From an uncultured Acidobacteriota bacterium (GTDB lineage Bacteria > Acidobacteriota > Vicinamibacteria > Vicinamibacterales > CAVVIG01), in assembly GCA_902825985.1 (NCBI GenBank), contig CADEDC010000009.1, positions 51,255 to 107,539 on the forward strand: 56,285 bases of DNA, written 5' to 3'. Below are positions 518 through 40,497 of the stretch, in pieces (within the stretch, counting starts at the first letter, position 1; every line of letters begins with the position of its first letter). Under the pieces are notes generated by a model. That model searched no databases, had not been told where the DNA came from, and saw nothing but the letters and a program-made list of their open reading frames with translations. Both the position numbers and the translations under genes were made by a program.

Positions 518-2415
518 GACGTCCTCGCGGCTTCATGAACATCTGGGCCAAGCAGGGGCGTGTGGGACGGCACGTCGGTCCGCCGCGCGAAATCCGGCCG
601 GTCGTGCAGGCTGGCAATCCAGAAGACGAAACCAATCAGCAGGAAGAAGACGAGCACCGTCACCGACACGATCTGCGTCGCGAACCCGAGCGTCGGCGTG
701 AACGCGTCCGGCGAGTTGTCGCGGATGACGCCGTACACATGCCAGTGCTGGCGCAGGCCTGACCGCACGTAGCCCATCAGCCCCATCAGCCAGGTGAAGG
801 TGATGGCGATGAAGATCAGGACGTACTGGGAGACCGCCGGCATCTTGCCCCACCGCACCTCGCCCGTCTTCTTCGGGGCCCGGAACAGGAACGTGTCGAT
901 GATGGTGATCGCGACCATGGCAACCAGAACCGACCCCACCTGCGGCACCGACAAGCCGATCCGAACGCTTGCCTCGACGAAATACCCGTAGATGCCAAGG
1001 AAGATGACGATTATCGCCGCGGCCGCGAAGATCGCAAGCTGAACGATCTGACCGGTCTTCGCCCAGGCCACCGTCGCGATCTTCCCCGTGCGCTGATAGA
1101 GGAGGAAGCTCATGAAGGTCGTCAGGATCAGGATGTTCACGGCGGTGTTCTTGGCGGACATCACGCCGAGGAAGCCGAGGATCGGGTGCGCCCCGCCGCC
1201 CATCGCCCGGACTTCCGAGACCGTCGCGATGATCGAACGCGGCGTCGCCCAGACGATGAAGCAGAGCACGATGGCGGCGAGCAGGTACTTGACGAACCGC
1301 TGAAACGGCTGCGCCCCCTCGACCCGCCCCATCCCGAGCCACAGATAGTAATTGGCGGCCAGGAAGAGGTTGCCGATGAGAACCGCCTGGATGATGAAGA
1401 GCCACGAGAACGCCCCGCCCATCATCGTCAGCCCGAGCGTCTGCGAGTAGGCGTAGATCTCCTTCGCAAGCCAATAGCCGGCGAACGGCAGCGGCAGGAA
1501 GGCGCTGATGGCGACGAAATTCCCGATGTATCCCATCCAATCGTAGTGGGCACGCTCTTCGTCGGTCGTCGCCTGGAGGAACTTGAAGGCCGCGTAGGCC
1601 GCTGCGACCGACCCCCCGAACGCGATGTTGGCGATGAACCGATGCACGTTGATCGGCATCCACGTGTAGTTGTAGATCGCGTCCGACAGCGAGATGAGCG
1701 ACCCCTGGCTCGAGATCCCGTTCGGCGACATCATGAACGTGGTCCAGGAATTGGCGATCATCATGATGGCGGTGCCGACGACATTGAGGCCGAGCCCCAG
1801 GCCCAGATGCACCAGCGGATGGAACTTCCCCCAGCCATAGTAGTAGGTGTAGAGGAAGAAGGCCTCCGCGAAGAACAGCAGGACGTACGGAAGGAAGGTC
1901 GGAGAGAACACGCTCATCAGGTAGTTGGTGAACTTCGGATAGAGAATGATGAGCAGGAACGTCAGACAGGCGCCGAAGGTGGCGGTGAGCGAGAACGAGA
2001 CCGACAGGAGCTTCGAGAACTCGTGCGCCAGTCTGTCGTAACGCGGATCGCCGGTCTTGTAACCGATCGCCTCGATGATGATGGCGAAGATCGGGACGGC
2101 CAGGACGAACGCGGCGAACAGCAGGTGCAGCTGCGCCACCACCCAGATGGCCACGCGGCTGCCCACCACCGGAAACGCCCGGTACTCGGCCTCCGTATAG
2201 GGTGTCGCCTCGGCCTTGCTGTCGGCCTCGGCCTTCTCGGCGGCCAGCCCCTCGGCGCGGGGCGTGGGATCGACGGTCGCGACGGGGGCCCGGTAGGCGT
2301 CCCGATACTCCTGGCTCATCAGCCACGAGACCATCCGGACCGTGCCGCCAAACATGACCAGAACGACGACGGGACCGATGAGCGCCAGCAGCTTGCGGTT
2401 CATCACGACGTTCAA
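514..2415 (-). CDS. CydA-like (cytochrome bd subunit I family) membrane protein
   Basis: A 633-residue polytopic membrane protein. After a first helix (10-33) and a charged periplasmic insert (about 36-80), residues 86-260 align by eye with the first four helices of CydA. His97, Glu184 and His258 fall where E. coli CydA has His19, Glu107 and His186. The position of Glu99 is Pro176. The GRQPW heme b595 motif is degenerate (LRQHW, 554-558), with Ser552 where Glu445 should be. No quinol-binding Q-loop signature is visible. It probably still binds heme, but it is not a standard quinol oxidase. There is no CydB gene next to it. The start is TTG at 2415, spaced 7 bases from a GGGAGG; an ATG at 2403 is the alternative. 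The assignment to the bd superfamily is by pattern, not by search. Confidence 0.8.
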   Translation of the reverse strand: MNVVMNRKLLALIGPVVVLVMFGGTVRMVSWLMSQEYRDAYRAPVATVDPTPRAEGLAAEKAEADSKAEATPYTEAEYRAFPVVGSRVAIWVVAQLHLLFAAFVLAVPIFAIIIEAIGYKTGDPRYDRLAHEFSKLLSVSFSLTATFGACLTFLLIILYPKFTNYLMSVFSPTFLPYVLLFFAEAFFLYTYYYGWGKFHPLVHLGLGLGLNVVGTAIMMIANSWTTFMMSPNGISSQGSLISLSDAIYNYTWMPINVHRFIANIAFGGSVAAAYAAFKFLQATTDEERAHYDWMGYIGNFVAISAFLPLPFAGYWLAKEIYAYSQTLGLTMMGGAFSWLFIIQAVLIGNLFLAANYYLWLGMGRVEGAQPFQRFVKYLLAAIVLCFIVWATPRSIIATVSEVRAMGGGAHPILGFLGVMSAKNTAVNILILTTFMSFLLYQRTGKIATVAWAKTGQIVQLAIFAAAAIIVIFLGIYGYFVEASVRIGLSVPQVGSVLVAMVAITIIDTFLFRAPKKTGEVRWGKMPAVSQYVLIFIAITFTWLMGLMGYVRSGLRQHWHVYGVIRDNSPDAFTPTLGFATQIVSVTVLVFFLLIGFVFWIASLHDRPDFARRTDVPSHTPLLGPDVHEAARTS

Positions 2416-2427
2416 AACGGGGCCTCC

Positions 2428-3021
2428 CTACCTGACACTGCCGGGACCACCGGCCAGCCGTTTGCGCTCGAGCTCGCGAACGTAGGCGACGATCGCCCAG
2501 CGGTCCGCCGGAGGAATCGGCCAGCGATACCCCGCCATCAGCCCTGTCCCGTTCGTGATGACGTCGAACACCCGCCCGTCTGGGTATTTGACGATTTCTT
2601 CCTGATGCATCGAGGCGGTGGGGACGTTGCCCCGCTGATAGAGAATCCCCCTCCCGTCTCCGCGCGCATCATGGCACGGCTGGCAGTAGATCACGTAACG
2701 CTGGCGGCCGCGCTCGACAACCGCCTCATCCACGTTCACCGGGCTCGTCGCGACGAACTCCCCGTCGGCGCCCTTGCCAGTGTGGAAGGCCGTGTCCTCT
2801 TTCAGCCCGTCAATCGCGACGGTGCCGGGAATCGGCTGCCGCATGGAGGCGCCGTCATAGAAGAACGCACTGGCCGACTGTGGCAGCGCCTTCGGCTGGT
2901 CGTCCATGCTCGGATTGATGTGAATGGGGGGGCGAGCTGACGTGCAGCCCCGCGCGCAACCGGCGGTGACCAGGGCGGTCAGCGCCAGCGCCCCCAGCAC
3001 CTGCGACCGGCGCGCGATCAT
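2428..3021 (-). CDS. ActE-like monoheme cytochrome c lipoprotein
   Basis: A 197-residue protein with a lipoprotein signal peptide (lipobox Cys22) and one CQPCH heme c site (Cys113, Cys116, His117). The stretch YPDGRVFDVITNGTGLMAGY after the heme supplies a plausible Met ligand and closely resembles ActE of alternative complex III, which carries the same FDVITNG block. Its ATG overlaps the stop of actB (ATGA, 3018-3021), and the CydA-like gene follows 12 bases later. In the family this subunit is a lipid-anchored periplasmic cytochrome that relays electrons from the ActA/ActB side. That it does so here is inferred from the neighbours. Confidence 0.85.
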   Translation of the reverse strand: MIARRSQVLGALALTALVTAGCARGCTSARPPIHINPSMDDQPKALPQSASAFFYDGASMRQPIPGTVAIDGLKEDTAFHTGKGADGEFVATSPVNVDEAVVERGRQRYVIYCQPCHDARGDGRGILYQRGNVPTASMHQEEIVKYPDGRVFDVITNGTGLMAGYRWPIPPADRWAIVAYVRELERKRLAGGPGSVR

Positions 3022-6000
3022 GCAACCGGCCTCTCGTTCTGGCCTGCCGAACGGGCGCGCGCATCGGTCCGCACGCCCTCCAGATCCGGATTCGGATTGC
3101 GCACCTTGGTCAGATACGTCGTTCGCGGCTTGGTATTCAGTTCCTCGAGCAGCGCGTAGTGCCGTGCCTCGGCCTTCGCCTTCACGACCCGACTCTCGGG
3201 GTCGCGCAGATCACCGAATTCGATGGCCGACGCCGGGCACGCCTGCTGACAGGCCGTCTTGATGTCGCCGTCGCGAAGCGCACGCCCGGCAAGCTTCGCG
3301 TCGAGCTTGCCCTTGCTGATCCGCTGCGTGCAGTACGTGCACTTCTCCATCACGCCGCGGGCCCGCACCGTCACGTCCGGATTCATCACCAGCTTGAGAA
3401 TGTTCGGCGTGTCCTTGGTGAAATTGAAGAAATTGAAGCGGCGCACCTTGTAGGGACAGTTGTTCGAGCAGTAGCGGGTGCCGATGCAGCGGTTGTAGAC
3501 CATCACGTTGAGCCCTTCGCTGTCGTGGACGGTGGCGGCCACGGGACAGACCTGCTCGCAGGGCGCGTCCTCGCAGTGCATGCAGGGAACCGGCTGGAAG
3601 ACGACGTCGGGGCTGCCGGACGGCTCGCCGGAGAAGTATCGGTCGACGCGGATCCAGTGCATCTCGCGCCCTTTCGACACCTGATCCTTGCCGACGACCG
3701 GGATGTTGTTCTCGGTCTGGCAGGCCACCATGCACGCGTTGCACCCGATGCACGAGTTCAGGTCGATGGACATCCCCCACTGGTGGCCCTGATCGTAGGC
3801 GTGCTCCTTCCACAGCGAGAAATGATGCGGCTCTGCCTCGAAGACGCCGAGTGGGCCGACAACGCCTCCGCCGTTCGTGTCGTGCGGCGCCTCTTCCGCA
3901 TGCGCGGCCTCGCCCGCCGCTCCTGAGGCCCCTGCCGCTTCGGCGCTCGACCGCAGCTCGGTCAGCGTCGACTCGCGCACGAGCGGCCGCCCCTCCATGC
4001 TGCCGTGCTCCTGGGTCGCCGCAATCGGGTAGCGGCGGCCGAGCCTGGTGAGCCGGGCGCCGCCGCCGAAGCCGAGGGCCTGCGAACCTCGCACCGTGTA
4101 TGTGTTGAACCCGACGCCGGTGCCAACCCGGCCGGCCCGCGCCCGCCCGTAGCCAAGCGTGAGGGCGACCACACCGTCCGCCATCCCCGGCAGCACCCAG
4201 ACCGGCAGTTCGAGCGACCGGCCGGCGAACTCGAAGCGGACGACGTCCTCGCTCGCCACGCCGATCGTCTCGGCGGTCCTGGGACTCACGAGCGCGGGGT
4301 TGTCCCACGTGATTTTGGTCAGGGGATCCGGCAGTTCCTGCAGCCACGCGTCGTTGGCGAAGCGGCCGTCGTGCAAGGCGGGAGAGGGAAGGAAGACCAC
4401 CTCCAGGCCGCCGTCCGACCCACCAGCGGCGCCTCCGGAGCCGGGTGCGCCCGCGCCGGCACCAAGCGATCGCGCCAGGTCCGCCAGGGGCTGCACCGAG
4501 GATTCGGGAACCACCTCCGGAAGCTCGCTCTCGGACAGGAAGCCATCGTGCAGGACGCGGTTCCACTTCCGGTCGAAATCGTCGCCCAGGATCGGGGCCC
4601 AGGTTTCGCGCACGATGTCGTAGCCGGGGCGTTCCTTCCCGCCGGCCAGCAGCCCCAGCACTTCGACGGGGGTCCGGGCGCCGAACAACGGGAGAATCAG
4701 CGGCTGCACGACGCTCAGCGTGCCGCCGGCGGCACGCGCATCGCCCCACGATTCGAAGTAGTGCGCCCGCGGAATGTGCCAGGTCGCCGCGGCGGACGTT
4801 TCATCGACGGCGTGCGCGACGGCGATCGTCTCGGGCACCTTCGCCATCGCCGCGGCAAAATCGAGGTCGGCGGGGGCATCGTAGACGGGGTTGCCACCCA
4901 GGATGACGAGGGTCTTGATGGTGCCGGCCTGCATCGCGGACACCAGCGAGGCCAGCGCGCTCGCACTCGGCAGCGCCGCGTCCGTCGTCTCGTGATAGCT
5001 GAGCGTGCGGCCCGTGTTGTCGAGAAACCCGTTCAGCGCGCAGACCGCGGCGTGGACGACGGCGGGCTGCCGATCTCCGGCGACGATCAGGCTCTTGCCG
5101 CGGTTCGCCAGCAGGTCCTTCGCCAGCGCTTCGATCCAGCGCGGGTCGACGCCGGCGACGTCGGCGCCCGGCAGGCTGACGCCGGCGTCGGACGGAATCA
5201 GGCGCGCCGCCAAGGCGGCGAGAAAAGGGGCGATCTGCCGGCTTTCGAGACGGAGTCGATGATCCGCCACGGCTCCGGTCAGCGAATAGACCCCTTCCAC
5301 CGCGTAGAGGCGGTTCATCGCGGCACCCGAGGCGCCGGCCCGCCGGCCGGCGGCAAAGCCTCGCGCATTCCGGATCATCTCGGGATCGGTCAGCAACGGG
5401 TCGGCATCCAGCGCGAGGATGACGGACGCCTGATCCATCCGTAGCGTCAGGTCGAGGTCCCGCCCGGTGGCCGACCGCAGACCTGCGAGACGGTTCTCGT
5501 CACTGACCGCCTCGTAGGTGGCCCAGGTCGCCCGCGGATAGCGGGCGCGGAACTCGGAGGCCAGGCGCGCCAGCGTCGGTGAGGCGAAGGACTCACACAG
5601 CACGGCCAGTCCAGCACCACCATCCGCCGCGTGCGGCTCCGCCAGCTGCGCCCAGGCGGTGACGAAATCACTCCACGACTTCGCTTCCCCGCGCAACGTC
5701 ACCGTCCGGGAACGGTCCGGATCGTACAGCCCCAGCACCGACGCCTGAACGATGGAGCCGGAAGCCCCACGGGTCGAGGGGTGCGTGGGATTGCCTTCGA
5801 TCTTGGACGGTCTCCCTTCGTGGCTCTCGACGACCAGCCCATACGCGCTCCGCCGGAACGGCATGGTCGTGGCGTAGTAGCGGGGGTTCCCGGGGACGAC
5901 ATCCTCGGGAGCCGTGACGAACGGCACAATCTCCTCGACGGGGCGACGGCACCCGGCGCTGCCCGCGAGCGAGAGCGACGCGCCGAGGAGCGCCATCATG

Positions 6001-6122
6001 TCGCGCCGGCTGACACCCTCGGGAAGCTCGGAAGCGCCCTCCGGGAACTCCCGTTCCAGGAACGCCCGCGACTCCGGGCGGTCCTCACGCTGCGCGAGAC
6101 TCCGCCAGTATTGCCGTGTCAC
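3018..6122 (-). CDS. actB: ActB-like molybdopterin-family/iron-sulfur protein (first copy)
   Basis: A 1034-residue fusion of an N-terminal molybdopterin-oxidoreductase-like domain and a C-terminal ferredoxin-like domain, the architecture of ActB in alternative complex III. A Tat-type signal (SRRDMMALLG) lies near residue 40, so the folded protein is probably exported. The C-terminal part (roughly 785-1000) carries four cysteine clusters, including CIGCNACMVAC, CMHCEDAPCEQVCP, CIGTRYCSNNCP, CTYC and CQQACP, enough for several Fe-S clusters. I see no obvious Mo ligand, as in known ActB. The GTG at 6122 overlaps the TGA of actA (GTGA, 6119-6122), so I prefer it over the longer open frame that reaches 6281. 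It would carry electrons between the hemes of ActA and the membrane subunit. Confidence 0.9.
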   Translation of the reverse strand: MTRQYWRSLAQREDRPESRAFLEREFPEGASELPEGVSRRDMMALLGASLSLAGSAGCRRPVEEIVPFVTAPEDVVPGNPRYYATTMPFRRSAYGLVVESHEGRPSKIEGNPTHPSTRGASGSIVQASVLGLYDPDRSRTVTLRGEAKSWSDFVTAWAQLAEPHAADGGAGLAVLCESFASPTLARLASEFRARYPRATWATYEAVSDENRLAGLRSATGRDLDLTLRMDQASVILALDADPLLTDPEMIRNARGFAAGRRAGASGAAMNRLYAVEGVYSLTGAVADHRLRLESRQIAPFLAALAARLIPSDAGVSLPGADVAGVDPRWIEALAKDLLANRGKSLIVAGDRQPAVVHAAVCALNGFLDNTGRTLSYHETTDAALPSASALASLVSAMQAGTIKTLVILGGNPVYDAPADLDFAAAMAKVPETIAVAHAVDETSAAATWHIPRAHYFESWGDARAAGGTLSVVQPLILPLFGARTPVEVLGLLAGGKERPGYDIVRETWAPILGDDFDRKWNRVLHDGFLSESELPEVVPESSVQPLADLARSLGAGAGAPGSGGAAGGSDGGLEVVFLPSPALHDGRFANDAWLQELPDPLTKITWDNPALVSPRTAETIGVASEDVVRFEFAGRSLELPVWVLPGMADGVVALTLGYGRARAGRVGTGVGFNTYTVRGSQALGFGGGARLTRLGRRYPIAATQEHGSMEGRPLVRESTLTELRSSAEAAGASGAAGEAAHAEEAPHDTNGGGVVGPLGVFEAEPHHFSLWKEHAYDQGHQWGMSIDLNSCIGCNACMVACQTENNIPVVGKDQVSKGREMHWIRVDRYFSGEPSGSPDVVFQPVPCMHCEDAPCEQVCPVAATVHDSEGLNVMVYNRCIGTRYCSNNCPYKVRRFNFFNFTKDTPNILKLVMNPDVTVRARGVMEKCTYCTQRISKGKLDAKLAGRALRDGDIKTACQQACPASAIEFGDLRDPESRVVKAKAEARHYALLEELNTKPRTTYLTKVRNPNPDLEGVRTDARARSAGQNERPVA

Positions 6123-6766
6123 CGGTGGCACCCGGAACAGTCGGTGGGCGGGTTGACCGGTCGGTCGCGCTCGAGCTGGGCCACGAGAGCCCGGGCGTCG
6201 CGGGGCGGCGTCCACTTCATGTTGGTGACCTCGGAAACGGGGCGTCGGTTGGGACCGGGGTTGCGATGACAGTCGAGGCACCAGCTCATGCTGAGCGGCG
6301 TCGTCTGGGTGACCACATCCATCTCGTCGATACGACCGTGACAGGAGACACAGCCGATTCCGGCCGCGACGTGCGCCCGGTGGGCAAAAAAGGCGTAGTC
6401 GGGCAGCTTGTGGACACGGACCCAGCGCATGGGCCGGCCGCTGGTGACGCTGTCGCGAATCGGCGCGAGCAGCGGACTGTCACGCTTCACCAACTGGTGG
6501 CAGTTCATGCAGGTCTGCGTGGGCGGGATGTTCGCGACCGCAGAGATTTCGACCGACGCGTGGCAGTACCGACAATCCAGCCCCAGCTCGCCGACGTGCA
6601 GCTTGTGGCTGTAGGGAACCGGCTGAACCGGGCGGTAGCCGACGTCCGTGTACCACGGAGAAAAATAGTACCAGACGCCCGCGATCGCGAGCAGCGGGCC
6701 GAGGCTGCCCGCGATGGCAGCCATTATCGGCAACTTGTTCCACCAGGGCGGGAAGATCTGAGCCAA
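6119..6766 (-). CDS. actA: ActA-like pentaheme cytochrome c (first copy)
   Basis: A 215-residue protein with one N-terminal membrane helix and five CxxCH heme sites (CRYCH, CMNCH, CVSCH, CLDCH, CSGCH), the hallmark of ActA of alternative complex III. I choose a TTG start at 6766. It gives an N-terminus M-AQIFPPWWNKLP that matches M-SQIFNRSANTIA of the second ActA copy in this window, and the frame upstream has no better candidate. No convincing Shine-Dalgarno is visible before it. It is the first gene of a coupled cluster (actA, actB, actE-like, CydA-like, cytochrome c). About 180 bases of non-coding DNA precede it, in which I recognise no promoter. Confidence 0.88.
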   Translation of the reverse strand: MAQIFPPWWNKLPIMAAIAGSLGPLLAIAGVWYYFSPWYTDVGYRPVQPVPYSHKLHVGELGLDCRYCHASVEISAVANIPPTQTCMNCHQLVKRDSPLLAPIRDSVTSGRPMRWVRVHKLPDYAFFAHRAHVAAGIGCVSCHGRIDEMDVVTQTTPLSMSWCLDCHRNPGPNRRPVSEVTNMKWTPPRDARALVAQLERDRPVNPPTDCSGCHR

Positions 6767-6943
6767 TTTGATTGGGGCGATTATCCACAATCTCGGCCGG
6801 GGGTCAAGCGGGCCGCCGCATCACCGTCCGAGTCGGTCGATGGCGCGCGGGCAATCGGGGCGGCGAACGCACCCCAGGACGTGGTCAGACGAGTGAAACC
6901 CGAGTCGGAAGCGCGGCGCGCCGGCGGGCGGGCGGTGCGTCCC

Positions 6944-7369
6944 CTATTTCGTGCAGCCCCCGAGCCGCTTCCCCTCGTACGCCATCGTCATCGTCTTGCC
7001 GTCGCGGGTGAAGGTCATCGACCCCTTGTAGGAGTGCTCGTCGGTGTAGGTGATCTCGCCGCTGCCGGACATCGGCTGTGGCTTCTCGCACGTGAAAGCC
7101 CACGACACCTTGTGGCCCTCGACCTTGTGGTCGGAGACGGAGCAGCTTCCGGGCAGGTCGTGATGGCCGGGGATGGCCCCCTTGCCGGCAGCCGCCTCTT
7201 CCGTCGTGATGCACTGGGTCATCGTGCGGGCGGGCACCTTCCCGGCGGCGCCGTCGAGCACGAGCTCGATGGTGATCTCCCAGTTGCCATCTCGGCGGGG
7301 TGTCTGCGCGCCGGCTGTCGCCGACAGGGTGAGCAGACCGGCTAGCGATGCGGCGAGGCAGAACTTCAT
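6944..7369 (-). CDS. DUF3617 family exported protein
   Basis: A 141-residue protein with a clear signal peptide (about residues 1-21, ending AGA-Q). The mature part has WEITIE near its start, two pairs of cysteines (CITTEEA, GSCSV, FTCEKP, GGCTK) and a SGSGEITYTDEHSYKGSMTF stretch typical of the DUF3617 family of small periplasmic proteins, whose function is unknown. I start at the ATG at 7369, because the signal peptide begins there; the frame is open a further 12 codons upstream. It lies 86 bases downstream of purK on the same strand, with a hairpin between them, so it is probably transcribed separately. Confidence 0.75.
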   Translation of the reverse strand: MKFCLAASLAGLLTLSATAGAQTPRRDGNWEITIELVLDGAAGKVPARTMTQCITTEEAAAGKGAIPGHHDLPGSCSVSDHKVEGHKVSWAFTCEKPQPMSGSGEITYTDEHSYKGSMTFTRDGKTMTMAYEGKRLGGCTK

Positions 7370-7435
7370 GGGCGATGACCGCCGCCGGCGCATGAGCGCC
7401 GACACCCCATGGTGAGGGAAGGACGCAGCGGATGC

Positions 7436-7455
7436 AACCCCGGATATCGCCGGGT

Positions 7456-7456
<1 letters not shown>
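7436..7456 (-). terminator. Hairpin after purEK
   Basis: A short GC-rich inverted repeat (CCCGG at 7439-7443 and CCGGG at 7450-7454, extended by AA/TT) follows the purK stop. There is no long T-run, so termination here is only suggested. Confidence 0.35.
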
Positions 7457-8615
<1,159 letters not shown>

Positions 8616-33531: not shown

Positions 33532-36500
33532 CTAGCCGCCGAGCTCGGGGTTGACGTTCCGCACCGCCGCCAGGTACGTCGTGCGCGGTCGGGTGTTCAG
33601 CTCGGCCAGCATCGCGTAGTTGCGCTGCTCGGCCTGCATCCTGGCCACCCGGCTGTTGGGATCGTTGAGGTCGCCGAAGACGATGGCCTCGGTCGGGCAG
33701 GCCTGCTGACAGGCCGTCGCAATCTCCCCGTCCCTGACCTTGCGCATGGCCTTCTCCGCCGTGATCTTGGCTTCGTTGATCCGCTGCACGCAGTAGGTGC
33801 ACTTCTCCATCACGCCGCGGCTGCGGACGGTGACGTCGGGGTTGCGTCCGAGTGCCAGACTCGGGGTCGTCCAGTCCTGGTACAGCAGGTAGTTGAAGCG
33901 CCGGACCTTGTAGGGGCAGTTGTTCGAGCAGTAGCGCGTGCCGACACAGCGGTTGTACACCATGTCGTTGAGCCCTTCGTGGCTGTGCACCGTCGCATTG
34001 ACCGGGCAGACCACCTCGCACGGCGCGTTCTCGCACTGCTGGCACGGCACCGGCTGGAAGTAGGTCTCGGGGTTCTCCGATTCGCCGCGGTAGTACGAAT
34101 CGATGCGCAGCCAGTGCATCTCGCGACCACGCATCACCTGGTCCTTGCCGACCACGGCGAGGTTGTTCTCGGCCTGGCAACCGATGACGCACGCGTTGCA
34201 CCCGGTGCAGACGTTGACGTCGATGGCCATGCCCCACTTGTAGCCGTCGTACTTGTACTCGGGGACGAGGGTCAGCGTGCGCGGCGGCGTCTCGAAGCCG
34301 TGGTGCACCGCTTCCGGCTCCCTGAGGAACTCGTCCTTGGTGAGCGCGCGAACCATGCCGCGCCCTTCCATCGAGTGATGGCCCTGCGTGCAGGCGAGCG
34401 AGTAGCGCTCGCCGGTCGGCGTGATCTCGACGCCGCGGCCGACCTGCGGCGCGTCGGACGTCCGGATGGCATAGGCGTCGAACCCGGCGCCGCGCACCAG
34501 ATGACCGCCGCGACGCCGGCCGTAGCCGAAATGCACCGTCACCGCATCGTCCGGGTGGCCGACCACCGGAAACAGCGCCCCGCGTACGGAACGGCCCTTG
34601 TACTTGACCTCGACGATTTCGCTGACCTGCTGCCCGCGTTCACCGCCCTGCATGGCCGGGTAGGGCGAGATGCCGACCGCCGCAGCGGTCTTCGGCGACA
34701 CCAGCACCGCGTTGTCCCACACCAGTTTGGTGATCGGCTTCGGCAGTTCCTGCAACCAGCCGTTGTTCGCGAAGCGCCCGTCGAGCACCGTCGGGTCGTT
34801 GCGGAACTGGATGTCCATGCCGGTGCCGGACAGCGCCGACCCGGCGCCCACCGCACCGGCATGCAGCGTCACCGCCTTCGGCGCGAAGGCGGTGTCGGGC
34901 ACCACACCCTCGTGCAGCCATCCCCGCCACAGCCGTTCGAATTCCGGCGTCGAGTCGTCCTCGTTGCCGGGCACACCGAGCCCGGTCTGTTGCAGCCAGT
35001 GCTCGCGGATGATGTCGTAGCCGGATTTCTCCGGCGTCGCGCCGAAGATCGCCAGGATTTCATGCGCCGAGCGGGTCGCGTAGAGCGGCGCGATGAGCGG
35101 CTGGATGATCGACACCGTGCCGTCGAACGCCCGCACGTCGCCCCAGCTCTCGAGGAAGTGCGACTGCGGCACGTGCCAGTGCGACAGCTCGGCCGTCTCA
35201 TCGTCGTACGGGCTGAAGTAGAGACGCAGCGGCACCTTGCCCATCGCCGCCGCGAATTCGAGGTCGGCTGGCGCGCTGTAGACAGGGTTGCCACCCATGA
35301 TGAGCAGGATGTCGACCGAGCCAGCCGCCATGGCGGTGGCCAGTTCGCGCAGCGACTGCGCATGATCCACCGGACTCGCGACCACCGGTTCGGTGTGGAC
35401 CACCGTCTCGCCGACGTTCCCGAGCGTCACGTTCATGGCATGCGCCAGCGCATGCACCGCGGCCGGCTGCGACTCGCCGACGACGACCATCGACCTCCCC
35501 TTGTGGGCCTGAAGGTCGCTCGCCACCGCCGCCACCCAGGCGGCCGCCGATGCTGCCGCGTCGCCCGACACCGCCCCGCCCGCGGACACGCCGGCAACGC
35601 CGACGGCGACCGCCAGCTGTCGGGCGAGCCCTTCGATGTCACCTGGCTTGACCGGCAAGCGATGATCGGCCTGCGCCCCGGTGCCGGTCGGCATGCTCTC
35701 CGCGGCATAGAGCCGGTTCATCCGATCGGCCTCCGACGGCCGGCGGCGCGCGGCGAAGTGCCGGGCATTGCGGAGCGAGCCGGGACCGCTCGTCAGGAAA
35801 TCGGCATCGAGCGCGACGATGACGTCCGCCCGGTCGAGACGATACTGGGTTTCGACCGGCTCGCCGAAGGCGAGTCGGGCACCCGAATAGACCGCGTCGC
35901 GGGCCGCCGGATCCCACTGGTGCCACCTGGCCTCGGGATACCGCTGCAGCACCTGCTGCATCTGGGCGACCAGCGTCGGCGAGCTGAACGACTCGGTGAG
36001 GATGCGCAGGCCGGCGCCCTTCAACGGCTCCTGGCCGGCGAGCGCCGCCCGCACCGTCAAGAGCAGGGTCGGCCACGGCCGGATCTCGCCGACGTTGGTG
36101 ACCGCGCGTGCCCGGTCGGGGTCGTAGAGGTCCAGCACCGACCCCTGCGCGAACACATCGGTCGCGCCCAGGCTGTCGGGGTGCGTCGGATTGCCCTCGA
36201 CCTTGGTGGGCCGCCCTTCGTGGCTTTCCACGAGGAGGCCGACGCCGACGCCGCCAAGCGGCATCGCGGTGGCGAAGAACAACGGTTTGCCGGGGATGAG
36301 CTCCTCCGGCTGACGCACATACGGAACGATCTTCTCGACCGGCTGCTTGGTGCACGCGGTGACACCGGCGAGCCCGAGCGACGCACCCATGAGCTTCAGG
36401 AACGAACGGCGCTCGACCGGATCGACGATCGCTTCGACAGCGGTGGGGAACTCGTTGTGCAACCGCGCGCGGAAGGCGGGATCATCCGCCAGCTCATCGA

Positions 36501-36537
36501 GCGATCGCCAGAATTCGCGGGCGTCTTTTCGCTTCAT
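33532..36537 (-). CDS. actB: Alternative complex III subunit ActB (second copy)
   Basis: A 1001-residue periplasmic fusion of a molybdopterin-oxidoreductase-like domain (without a visible Mo site) and a four-cluster ferredoxin-like domain. The cysteine blocks are CTGCNACVIGC, CQQCENAPCEVVCP, CVGTRYCSNNCPYKVRR, CTYC and CQQACP. The N-terminus begins MKRKDAREFWRSLDELA; a signal-like helix follows RRSFLKLMGASLGLAG near residue 44, a Tat-type pattern. The ATG at 36537 overlaps the actA stop (ATGA, 36534-36537); the open frame further upstream lies inside actA. Its C-terminal third is closely similar to the copy at 3018-6122. Confidence 0.97.
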   Translation of the reverse strand: MKRKDAREFWRSLDELADDPAFRARLHNEFPTAVEAIVDPVERRSFLKLMGASLGLAGVTACTKQPVEKIVPYVRQPEELIPGKPLFFATAMPLGGVGVGLLVESHEGRPTKVEGNPTHPDSLGATDVFAQGSVLDLYDPDRARAVTNVGEIRPWPTLLLTVRAALAGQEPLKGAGLRILTESFSSPTLVAQMQQVLQRYPEARWHQWDPAARDAVYSGARLAFGEPVETQYRLDRADVIVALDADFLTSGPGSLRNARHFAARRRPSEADRMNRLYAAESMPTGTGAQADHRLPVKPGDIEGLARQLAVAVGVAGVSAGGAVSGDAAASAAAWVAAVASDLQAHKGRSMVVVGESQPAAVHALAHAMNVTLGNVGETVVHTEPVVASPVDHAQSLRELATAMAAGSVDILLIMGGNPVYSAPADLEFAAAMGKVPLRLYFSPYDDETAELSHWHVPQSHFLESWGDVRAFDGTVSIIQPLIAPLYATRSAHEILAIFGATPEKSGYDIIREHWLQQTGLGVPGNEDDSTPEFERLWRGWLHEGVVPDTAFAPKAVTLHAGAVGAGSALSGTGMDIQFRNDPTVLDGRFANNGWLQELPKPITKLVWDNAVLVSPKTAAAVGISPYPAMQGGERGQQVSEIVEVKYKGRSVRGALFPVVGHPDDAVTVHFGYGRRRGGHLVRGAGFDAYAIRTSDAPQVGRGVEITPTGERYSLACTQGHHSMEGRGMVRALTKDEFLREPEAVHHGFETPPRTLTLVPEYKYDGYKWGMAIDVNVCTGCNACVIGCQAENNLAVVGKDQVMRGREMHWLRIDSYYRGESENPETYFQPVPCQQCENAPCEVVCPVNATVHSHEGLNDMVYNRCVGTRYCSNNCPYKVRRFNYLLYQDWTTPSLALGRNPDVTVRSRGVMEKCTYCVQRINEAKITAEKAMRKVRDGEIATACQQACPTEAIVFGDLNDPNSRVARMQAEQRNYAMLAELNTRPRTTYLAAVRNVNPELGG

Positions 36538-37184
36538 TGATGACACGTCGAACAGCTCGTGAGCTTCTGAATCTCGTATTCGGCCACCAACCGCGTGCCC
36601 AACTCGAGCTGATCGGCTGGCGGCTGGTAGCTGACCGAGAACACGGCATTGCGTGGCCGGACGTACTGCTCCGGGTTGCGATGGCAGTCCAGGCACCACT
36701 CCATCTGGAGCGAACTCTCCTGCCACATGAGCGGCATGCGGTCGACCGGGCCGTGACACGTCGTGCAGCCGACCCCCTTGCTGACATGGATGCTGTGATC
36801 GAAGTGCACGAAGTCCGGCAGATCGTGCACGCGATTCCACTCAATGGCGCGGCCGCTCTCGAAGGCGTCACGCACCGGCTTGAGGTACTGGCTGTTCGCA
36901 AAGACCTCGGAATGGCAGTTCATGCACGTCTTCACCGGTGGAATGCCGGCGAACTTCGAGTCCTCGACCGACGTATGGCAATAGCGGCAGTCGATGCCGT
37001 TGCCGCCGACGTGGCGTTCGTGACTGAACTGAACCGGCTGCTCGCGGGCGACGCGCTGGTCGGTGTTCCAGGCTGAGCGATGCATCAGGGCCACCAGCGA
37101 CAGCAGCCCGGTGATCACGAGTACCGCGCCAAGGATGCTGACGCGGGCGATGGTATTCGCGCTGCGGTTGAAAATCTGCGACAT
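36534..37184 (-). CDS. actA: Alternative complex III subunit ActA, pentaheme cytochrome c (second copy)
   Basis: A 216-residue protein with one N-terminal helix and five CxxCH sites (CRYCH, CMNCH, CTTCH, CLDCH, CSTCH). The start is the ATG at 37184, which gives the family N-terminus MSQIFNRSANTIARV; the open frame upstream does not look coding. It is the first gene of the twelve-gene ACIII-caa3 operon that ends at 24628. A CRP/FNR-like palindrome lies about 120 bases before the start. Confidence 0.97.
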   Translation of the reverse strand: MSQIFNRSANTIARVSILGAVLVITGLLSLVALMHRSAWNTDQRVAREQPVQFSHERHVGGNGIDCRYCHTSVEDSKFAGIPPVKTCMNCHSEVFANSQYLKPVRDAFESGRAIEWNRVHDLPDFVHFDHSIHVSKGVGCTTCHGPVDRMPLMWQESSLQMEWCLDCHRNPEQYVRPRNAVFSVSYQPPADQLELGTRLVAEYEIQKLTSCSTCHQ

Positions 37185-37304
37185 CAGTTTCGGGAGCGAC
37201 TCGCAGGCATCCGAACGAGGCAGATGCTCCTGCTCGGGGATCACCGACGGGTGCCAACTGCAAGGCAGCTTACTATTTTTGGGTAGAAAGCGCGACAACT
37301 ATTT

Positions 37305-37414: not shown

Positions 37415-37861
37415 CTACTTGAAGAGGTCGTCGAAGGCCTGGCGGGCGCTCGGCTGGCCGGTCGCGACCGCCGTGCCGGTCTGCCGTTCGACGGTCGTCC
37501 GTGGCGCAAACCAGGCGCACGCGTTGCGCTCGTCCTTCGGCGCCACCCGCGCCGTCAACGCCGGCTGATTGCACTCCCACCGCGCACCGGTATCGAACGC
37601 GACGCAGTTGACACAGCTGTGCACGTCGACGCCGCAGCGCGGGCAGCGGCTGTCGGCGGCGACCTCCGCCGACAGCTTGTTGCCGCAGCGCGCGCAACGG
37701 AAGATCTCGTGCGACGCCATCAGGTTTGGCGTCCGCGGGCCGGCGGCGTCCTGCAGGGGACGGCCGGGGGCGCGTGGTTCGGGCGCCGGTTTCGGGCCGC
37801 GGGGGGCGCGCTCGCGCGGCTCATCCTGGTAGCCGTGCTGACGATACTTGCGGTCACTCAT
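37415..37861 (-). CDS. Small zinc-ribbon protein
   Basis: A 148-residue protein. The first 48 residues are polar, Pro/Arg-rich and probably disordered. Residues 56-115 carry eight cysteines: CARC (56, 59), CPRC (73, 76), CVNC (83, 86), Cys97 and Cys115. This is enough for one zinc-ribbon (56-76) and a second metal site. The tail ends RQAFDDLFK. ATG at 37861 is taken. No enzyme motif is seen; the function is unknown. It is divergent from the selenoprotein gene, sharing a 54-base upstream region. Confidence 0.7.
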   Translation of the reverse strand: MSDRKYRQHGYQDEPRERAPRGPKPAPEPRAPGRPLQDAAGPRTPNLMASHEIFRCARCGNKLSAEVAADSRCPRCGVDVHSCVNCVAFDTGARWECNQPALTARVAPKDERNACAWFAPRTTVERQTGTAVATGQPSARQAFDDLFK

Positions 37862-37915
37862 GCGGGCATCGTGCAGCAAGTCGCCGGAACGGCGCAATAG
37901 GGGCGATAATCAAAT

Positions 37916-38599
37916 ATGCCGTTGCTGGCCCCCGCTGACCAGGACCGCCTGCGCGCCGAGTTCTCGCTCATGACGCGCCGCGTCCACCTGCTGTTCTTCA
38001 CGCAGGCACTCGGCTCCGAGACCTGCCTGCTGACCCGGCAGATCCTCGACGAGTTCCCGCCGCTGTCCGATCGCGTCGTCATCGACGAGGCCAACCTGGT
38101 CCTCGAGCCGGATCGCGCCCGCCAGTACGGCGTCGACCGCGTGCCGGCGATTGCCGTGCTCTACGAGGACGAGACGGCGACGCTGCAGCCGCTGCCGGCG
38201 AGCGGCGCCGCGCCGCCGCTCGACTCGCGGATCCGCTTTCTCGGCATGCCGGCCGGCTACGAATTCGTCTCGCTGGTGCAGGCCATCCTGCTGGCCGGCG
38301 GGCGCGGGTCGCAGCTGTCGGCGGCATCGCTGGAGCGCCTCGCGCTGGTCGACAAGCCGGTCGTGATGCAGGTGTTCACGACACCGACATGACCGCACTG
38401 CCCGCGAGCCGTGACGCTCGCGCACGAGATGGCCTTTGCCAGCCCGCAGATCACGGCGTACGCGGTCGAAGCCACCGAGTACCCGGACCTCGCCCGTCGC
38501 TACCGGGTCACCGGCGTGCCCAAGACCGTCGTCAACGAACACATCGAGATCCTCGGTGGCCTCCCGGAGGATGCCTTCATCGAACAGGCACTGGGCTAG
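37916..38599 (+). CDS. Protein disulfide oxidoreductase, probable selenoprotein (UPHC active site)
   Basis: Two tandem thioredoxin folds, 227 residues if the in-frame TGA at 38390-38392 is read as selenocysteine (residue 159). The frame continues without a break to the TAG at 38597-38599. The residues around it (QVFTTPT-U-PHCPRAVTLAHEMA) match the second active site of archaeal and bacterial glutaredoxin-like disulfide oxidoreductases, where the family has CPYC or CPHC. Sec would therefore replace the attacking Cys, with Cys162 resolving. A cis-Pro follows at 202 (GVPKT). The N-terminal fold has SETC (34-37), so its first Cys is lost, and a cis-Pro at 78. A bSECIS-like hairpin is at 38403-38422. 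It is cytoplasmic, with no signal peptide. A sequencing error in a Cys codon is the main alternative. Confidence 0.85.
38403..38422 (+). promoter_or_regulatory. Bacterial SECIS-like hairpin after the in-frame TGA
   Basis: A perfect 7-bp stem (CGCGAGC at 38403-38409, GCTCGCG at 38416-38422) closes a 6-base loop CGTGAC. The loop begins 17 bases after the TGA, and has G then T at its second and third positions. A spacing of roughly 16-37 bases and a G among the first two loop bases are the known features of bacterial SECIS elements bound by SelB. Confidence 0.75.
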
Positions 38600-38640: not shown

Positions 38641-40497
38641 GTGGCCCGCGTGATCTGCACCGCCCTGCTTGCCAGCCTGCTCGTCGCCGGCGCACCGGCC
38701 TGGGCGGCGGCACCGGTCGAGTACCGACTGTCCTTCCCCGCCCCCGAACATCACTGGATGCAGGTCGAGGTGCGGGTGCCGGAGGTCGGCGCCGGGCCGG
38801 TCGACCTGCGCATGAGCCGGACGTCGCCCGGCCGCTACGCCCTGCATGAGTTCGCCAAGAACGTCTACGACGTCCGCGCCTTCGACGCCAACGATCGCGA
38901 GATCCCGGTCGTCCAGCCGGATCCGTTCGGCTGGCGCGTCGAACGCCACGGCGGCGTCGTCCGCGTCGAGTACAAGGTGTTCGGCGACCGCGTCGACGGA
39001 ACCTACCTGGCCGTCGATCCAACGCACGCGCACATCAACATGCCGGCGGCCCTCATGTTCGCCCGCGGCCTCGACGACCGCGGCGCGATCCTCACCTTCA
39101 CGCCGCCGGCCGGTCGCGAGACATGGCAGGTGGCGACGCAGTTGCTGCCCGGCCGGCACCGGCTCGAGTTCACCGCGCCGAACCTGCAGTATCTGATGGA
39201 CAGTCCGGTCGAATTCGGGCCGGTGGCGCTGCAGACCTTCGTTCTCGATGGCCGCACGTTCCGGTTCGCCGCGCACCACGACGGCACCGGGGCCGAGCTG
39301 GACAGCTTCGTGCGTGACGTGCGCGAAATCGTCGCCGAACAGCGGACGATCTTCGGCGAGTACCCCGCCTACGATTCCGGGCACTACACGTTCCTCGCCG
39401 ACTACCTGCCGTACGCGAGCGGCGACGGCATGGAACATCGCAACAGCACCGTGATCAGCGCCGCCGGCTCGATTCGCCAGGATCGGGGGCGGCTGCTCGG
39501 CACGGTGGCGCACGAGTTCTTCCACAACTGGAACGTCGAGCGAATCCGGCCACGCGCGCTCGAGCCGTTCGACTTCGAAGCCCCGAACATGTCGGGCGAG
39601 CTGTGGCTCGCCGAGGGGTTCACCCAGTATTACGGCCCGTTGACGCTGAGCCGCGCCGGACTCGCCGATCTGTCGACGACGGCCGCCACGCTCGCCGGCC
39701 TCATCTCGACCGTCGCCCTCAACCCGGCGCGCCTGGTCCGTGGCGCGGACGCGATGAGCCGCATGGCGGTCTTCACCGACGGCGGCCGTCCGATCGATCC
39801 GACCAACTGGTCGACCACCTACATCTCCTACTATCCGTACGGCGCCGCCATTGCGCTCGCCCTCGACCTCACCTTGCGCGAGCGATTCGACGGTCGTGTC
39901 ACGCTCGATGACTTCATGCGGGCGATGTGGCGGACCTACGGCAAGCCGGGTGGAAGCCGGGTCGGCTACGTGGACCGGCCCTATACGCTGGCCGACGCCG
40001 AGCGGAGCCTCGCCGAGGTGACCGGCTCACCGGCGTTTGCCGCCGAGTTCTTCGCTCGCTACGTCACCGGCCACGAAGCGGCCGACTACGAACGGCTGCT
40101 CGCGCCGGCCGGCCTGCTGCTTCGCCGCCGTCAGCCCGGGGCCGCCTGGATCGGCGACGTCCGTTTCGCGAGCGGCACCAGCGGCTTGCGCGTCGACAGT
40201 GCGACGGTGCCGGGGAGCCCCCTGTACGATGCCGGCATCGACCGCGGCGACGAAGTGGTCGAACTGGCGGGACGTCCCGTCGCCGATGCGCGGGCGCTGG
40301 CGGCCGTGGTGTCGGCGGCGGGGCCCGGCGACCGCCTCCAGGCGACGATCGCCGACCGTGCCGGCACGACACGCCGCGTCACGCTGACGCTCGCCGGCGA
40401 CCCATCGGTGGAACTGGTAGCGGTCGAAGAGGCCGGCGGCCGGCTGACCGAGGCTCAGCGGACCTTTCGCCGCCGCTGGCTCGGGTCTCAGCGATAA
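38641..40497 (+). CDS. M61 glycyl aminopeptidase family protein with PDZ domain
   Basis: A 618-residue exported protein. A signal peptide (1-23) leads into the M61 N-terminal beta domain, then the gluzincin catalytic domain with GDGMEHRNS (261-269, the GAME-like loop), HEFFH (His291, Glu292, His295) and the third ligand Glu325 in WLAEGFT. Residues about 500-590 form a PDZ domain (PGSPLYDAGIDRGDEVVELAG). M61 enzymes cleave N-terminal small residues, mainly Gly or Ala, from peptides. It acts in the periplasm. The start is GTG at 38641, 41 bases after the selenoprotein gene. Confidence 0.94.
   Translation: MARVICTALLASLLVAGAPAWAAAPVEYRLSFPAPEHHWMQVEVRVPEVGAGPVDLRMSRTSPGRYALHEFAKNVYDVRAFDANDREIPVVQPDPFGWRVERHGGVVRVEYKVFGDRVDGTYLAVDPTHAHINMPAALMFARGLDDRGAILTFTPPAGRETWQVATQLLPGRHRLEFTAPNLQYLMDSPVEFGPVALQTFVLDGRTFRFAAHHDGTGAELDSFVRDVREIVAEQRTIFGEYPAYDSGHYTFLADYLPYASGDGMEHRNSTVISAAGSIRQDRGRLLGTVAHEFFHNWNVERIRPRALEPFDFEAPNMSGELWLAEGFTQYYGPLTLSRAGLADLSTTAATLAGLISTVALNPARLVRGADAMSRMAVFTDGGRPIDPTNWSTTYISYYPYGAAIALALDLTLRERFDGRVTLDDFMRAMWRTYGKPGGSRVGYVDRPYTLADAERSLAEVTGSPAFAAEFFARYVTGHEAADYERLLAPAGLLLRRRQPGAAWIGDVRFASGTSGLRVDSATVPGSPLYDAGIDRGDEVVELAGRPVADARALAAVVSAAGPGDRLQATIADRAGTTRRVTLTLAGDPSVELVAVEEAGGRLTEAQRTFRRRWLGSQR

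Follow-up and report, generated by a model that had tools for sequence, protein, structure and literature searches.

On the plus strand of the window (the whole 56,285-nt stretch of DNA analyzed here, which comes from an uncultured acidobacterium), the frame from 37916 to 38599 meets TGA only once, at codon 159, and ends at a TAG terminator (38597-38599). Retranslation agrees with the original prediction that this TGA alone breaks the frame, and the flanking residues QVFTTPT and PHCPRAV were found on either side of it as described, which places the TGA at the first cysteine position of the C-terminal active site. The features of the locus, together with the selenocysteine (Sec) genes of the same genome, are as follows.

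37415-37861, minus strand: small zinc-ribbon protein, a conserved neighbor that almost all relatives share
37899-37903, plus strand: possible ribosome-binding site AGGGG, 12 nt 5' of the ATG, suggested by its sequence
37916-38599, plus strand: very probable selenoprotein gene for a two-domain protein disulfide oxidoreductase (TIGR02187) of 227 aa with Sec at 159, from the frame, profile match, homologues, and predicted structure
38015-38026, plus strand: N-terminal active site at residues 34-37, degenerate (SETC here, CETC for the genus-mate)
38390-38392, plus strand: in-frame TGA at the first position of the C-terminal UPHC, assigned as Sec159 from the frame and homologues
38399-38401, plus strand: codon of Cys162, the probable resolving cysteine of UPHC
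38403-38422, plus strand: predicted bSECIS hairpin, with stem 38403-38409/38416-38422 and loop 38410-38415
38641-40497, plus strand: M61 (glycyl aminopeptidase) family peptidase with a PDZ domain, downstream of the gene and adjacent to it in many relatives
L120 (G000:C36:11000-20500), positions 669-8554, elsewhere in the genome: sel cluster with tRNA-Sec, selA, selB, and selD

The 227-residue readthrough product matches the TIGR02187 (PDO_seleno_TRX) profile over residues 7-225 with 218.5 bits, above the curated NCBIfam cut-off of 185 bits, and the C-terminal C/UxxC motif of this family is present as UPHC at residues 159-162. A phmmer search with the same protein aligns most of its length to the protein disulfide oxidoreductases (PDOs) of Aquifex (2ywm, E 2e-31) and Pyrococcus (1a8l, E 7e-25). 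An AlphaFold model, built with 12 homologues as input, has a pLDDT of 91 and consists of two fused thioredoxin folds that superimpose over their full length on the Pyrococcus and Aquifex PDOs (TM 0.84-0.86), the next best match being the N-terminal domain of AhpF. Sec159 lies just ahead of a helix that begins at Cys162, and the thioredoxin active site usually sits just before such a helix. The protein had been described as a two-domain glutaredoxin-like enzyme; the two domains stand, while the family is that of the protein disulfide oxidoreductases rather than of the glutaredoxins proper. A search of a plasmid collection with the gene returned just distant AhpF-like matches, all below 60% identity.

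To follow codon 159 across relatives we surveyed 162 genomes of the order and read 92 homologous genes. The equivalent codon is TGA in 80 of them and TGC or TGT in the other 12, which answers the earlier question of whether homologues carry Cys or Sec at this position, and the second active-site cysteine (Cys162) is invariant (92/92). At the family level, TGA occupies the same codon in 16 of the 21 genomes with a full-length gene. The 80 Sec and 12 Cys homologues make a clean comparative set for the exchange of Sec and Cys, and they also capture an RNA signal evolving within a coding region. Two TGA copies of the gene occur in one genome (G113; L063 and L064). The genus-mate record VFZL01000004.1 (L042) is labeled Acidimicrobiia; its family neighbors are labeled Acidobacteria, and it is probably a mislabeled metagenome-assembled genome.

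The original prediction proposed that the genome be searched for selA, selB, selD, and tRNA-Sec, and all four are present. In the host genome, a 5.85-Mb draft that is 98% complete in 174 contigs, they lie on one contig within 8 kb; the tRNA-Sec has the anticodon UCA, and the profile scores are 572 bits for selA, 348 bits for selB, and 383 bits for selD. The host selD has an in-frame TGA of its own, in the motif AAGUAAK, with an 8-bp hairpin (loop CGTGC) 32 nt downstream. A second tRNA-Sec candidate in the host genome, on contig C63, was rejected as a tRNA-Ser. The disulfide oxidoreductase gene and the sel cluster are on separate contigs of the draft, and the genus-mate (G025) also carries both. 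Across the survey, selA is present in 74 of 78 genomes with the TGA form versus 3 of 10 Cys-only genomes (Fisher 5e-6, with phylogeny not corrected for). The four TGA genomes in which selA above the cut-off is absent (G021, G050, G116, and G131) likely reflect assembly gaps, as G021 has a selB above cut-off and G050 has a partial selA.

Downstream of the TGA, the RNA can form a hairpin with a 7-bp stem (CGCGAGC/GCTCGCG) and a 6-nt loop (CGTGAC). The stem length, the G at loop position 2, and the 17-nt spacing from TGA to loop are as originally claimed. Its energy is -11.8 kcal/mol by hairpin enumeration and about -12 kcal/mol by RNAfold. Published bSECIS limits are a loop of 3-9 nt, a stem of 4-16 bp, a G at loop position 1 or 2, a spacing of 16-37 nt, and an energy of at most -7.5 kcal/mol (PMC13188914), and the hairpin at 38403-38422 falls inside every one of them. 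A search of the window against Rfam returned no family match for the hairpin, as would be expected since bSECIS elements are variable.

Taken alone, the hairpin is weak evidence for Sec, and it could be a by-product of G+C-rich coding sequence, with Sec inserted through another signal: of the window's 1394 TGA trinucleotides, 51 (3.7%) are followed by an equally or more stable hairpin under the bSECIS model. The earlier judgment that the features of this site are hard to explain by chance thus holds for their combination, given 80 homologues with the TGA, and overrated the hairpin by itself. Comparison among homologues makes a by-product very unlikely. Measured against synonymous codon shuffles, the stability of the 24-nt segment from codon 162 has a mean z of -1.79 in TGA genes versus -0.39 in Cys genes, and five control windows treated in the same way give a mean z of about 0, so that the excess stability is confined to this place and to TGA genes. 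Compensatory synonymous changes point the same way. Among the 4-nt-loop sequences, pair 15-30 links the third bases of the Pro163 and Leu168 codons; 8 distinct sequences have GC there, 7 have CG, and none leaves it unpaired, and the covariation fails in all slid registers. Where the loop has 5 nt and there is no bulge, pair 16-30 goes from CG to AU. The stem-loops fall into classes with a 4-nt loop, a 5-nt loop, a 5-nt loop plus a bulged U, and a 6-nt loop (the window genus), with paired register shifts among them, and the spacing from TGA to hairpin is constant across all loop classes. Additionally, Val166 is mostly encoded by GTC in the TGA genes (71 of 80) and by GTG in the Cys genes (9 of 12), a sign of selection on the RNA rather than the protein. 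These comparisons argue convincingly that the hairpin has been selected for structure at synonymous positions, in the TGA versions only.

A second alternative is that the TGA is a real stop, leaving either a pseudogene or just a one-domain protein of 158 residues. The standard code does end the open reading frame at 38392; however, the codons 3' of the TGA are conserved as protein (36 identical, 23 synonymous, and 9 nonsynonymous relative to the genus-mate), the same codon is TGA in 80 homologues and is swapped only for Cys codons, and the genome has complete Sec machinery. The original prediction had held that relatives stopping at the TGA with loss of the downstream domain would speak against it, and none of the 92 homologues read in the order lacks that domain. 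We consider a real stop extremely improbable. Under the standard code, annotation of dozens of acidobacterial genomes would truncate the gene at residue 158 and lose its catalytic domain. The open frame would also be compatible with the TGA being read otherwise, by near-cognate readthrough or a change of code that inserts Trp or another residue, but relatives without the TGA invariably have Cys there, selA co-occurs with the TGA form, and selection on the hairpin is confined to TGA forms. We give this possibility as little credence as a real stop. Finally, a TGC or TGT misread as TGA is conceivable in a draft assembly such as the one that supplied the window, but it is refuted by the identical TGA in independently assembled genomes from many genera and has a negligible probability.

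The computed frame, conserved TGA, Sec machinery of the genome, selection on the hairpin, protein family, and fold are best explained by decoding of UGA codon 159 as Sec via the hairpin, yielding a cytoplasmic-type PDO with two thioredoxin folds, and we regard this reading as close to certain. From these results we infer the actual insertion of Sec, the redox direction, and the partners. SelB carrying Sec-tRNA(UCA) would bind the hairpin at 38403-38422 and supply the ribosome with Sec for the UGA, after which translation would run on as far as the TAG (38597). In the resulting enzyme, Sec159 would attack a disulfide (or an oxidized thiol) in a partner protein, Cys162 would resolve the mixed selenenylsulfide to give an internal Sec-Cys bond, and this bond would be re-reduced by some reductase. 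The steps at Sec159 and Cys162 are established chemistry for thioredoxin-fold enzymes with UxxC or CxxC motifs. By analogy with the N-terminal domain of AhpF, the partner may be a peroxiredoxin, and a flavoprotein resembling thioredoxin reductase is a candidate electron donor. The zinc-ribbon protein may also be a substrate, as its gene is adjacent in nearly all relatives.

As originally noted, the N-terminal active site is reduced to SETC at residues 34-37. An intact N-terminal CxxC is usual in the TIGR02187 family and is not universal; the change from C to S is private to the window species, with CETC retained in the genus-mate. Both N-terminal cysteines are gone in 22 of the 80 TGA homologues, so an intact N-terminal site is not required for the family, while the C-terminal site has never decayed. 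This pattern suggests that catalysis most likely takes place at the C-terminal site. The proposal that the enzyme depends on Sec159 and Cys162 alone is plausible, and the loss in 22 of 80 homologues fits it.

The selenoprotein family itself was listed in 2006 as a "homolog of AhpF, amino-terminal domain" (PMC1794560), and it has been reported in Asgard archaea too (PMC11227280). A 2026 review places it, with TIGR02187 and UxxC, among those "predicted with high confidence" (PMC13188914). The window gene is a well-supported additional member of this family, which was itself listed as a sequence-based prediction: it shares the profile score over cut-off and the UxxC motif, and differs in having lost the first N-terminal Cys. 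It also differs from most relatives in its SECIS loop, CGU rather than GGU. The PDOs of Pyrococcus furiosus (1a8l) and Aquifex aeolicus (2ayt, 2ywm) share the two fused thioredoxin folds and align over the full length, but they have Cys where the window protein has Sec, and in the aligned 2ywm the N-terminal site is intact rather than SETC. The N-terminal domain of AhpF (1zyn, 5h29) has the double-thioredoxin fold in common with the window protein and retains CxxC at the second site only; AhpF joins this domain to a flavoprotein reductase, whereas the window protein stands alone and uses Sec.

Two lineages of SelA (and of SelB) occur inside the family of the window species. In the SelA tree, clade II comprises 11 sequences with 100/100 support; it includes the window genus (G000 and G025) and the family-mate G001, and it is separate from the clade I sequences of five sampled TGA-bearing family-mates (G009, G010, G014, G022, and G024). 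The operonic clade II SelA of the window genus is ~62-65% identical to the sequences of G001 and of another family, and ~48% identical to those of most family-mates. Both genomes of the window genus have SECIS loops that begin with CGU (CGUGAC in this gene and CGUGC or CGUGU in selD), while 71 of the 80 TGA genes have GGUC loops and the selD of 12 family-mates, G001 included, has GGU. With two related genomes and two genes, a link between CGU loops and the clade II machinery is only suggestive. A simple rule in which clade II SelA/SelB causes the change from GGU to CGU was rejected, as clade I genomes (G034, G041, G045, G051, and G054) also have GUG-type loops in this gene and the clade II genome G001 retains GGU in selD. 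A natural switch of SelB-SECIS specificity in the window genus, which would insulate its SelB and SECIS elements at least in part from the ancestral pair, is a tentative idea that we think more likely wrong than right by a wide measure; should the CGU loops prove to fit a SelB that was replaced, they would be a natural example of SelB-SECIS co-evolution.

The zinc-ribbon gene adjoins both the Sec and the Cys forms, on the same strand in most genomes and divergently in the window and in G011, apparently through an inversion in place. Farther upstream, a multihaem cytochrome resembling QrcA (36534-37298, minus strand) lies next to a 1102-aa open reading frame (33532-36840, minus strand), and the two look like the start of a cluster of the alternative complex III type.
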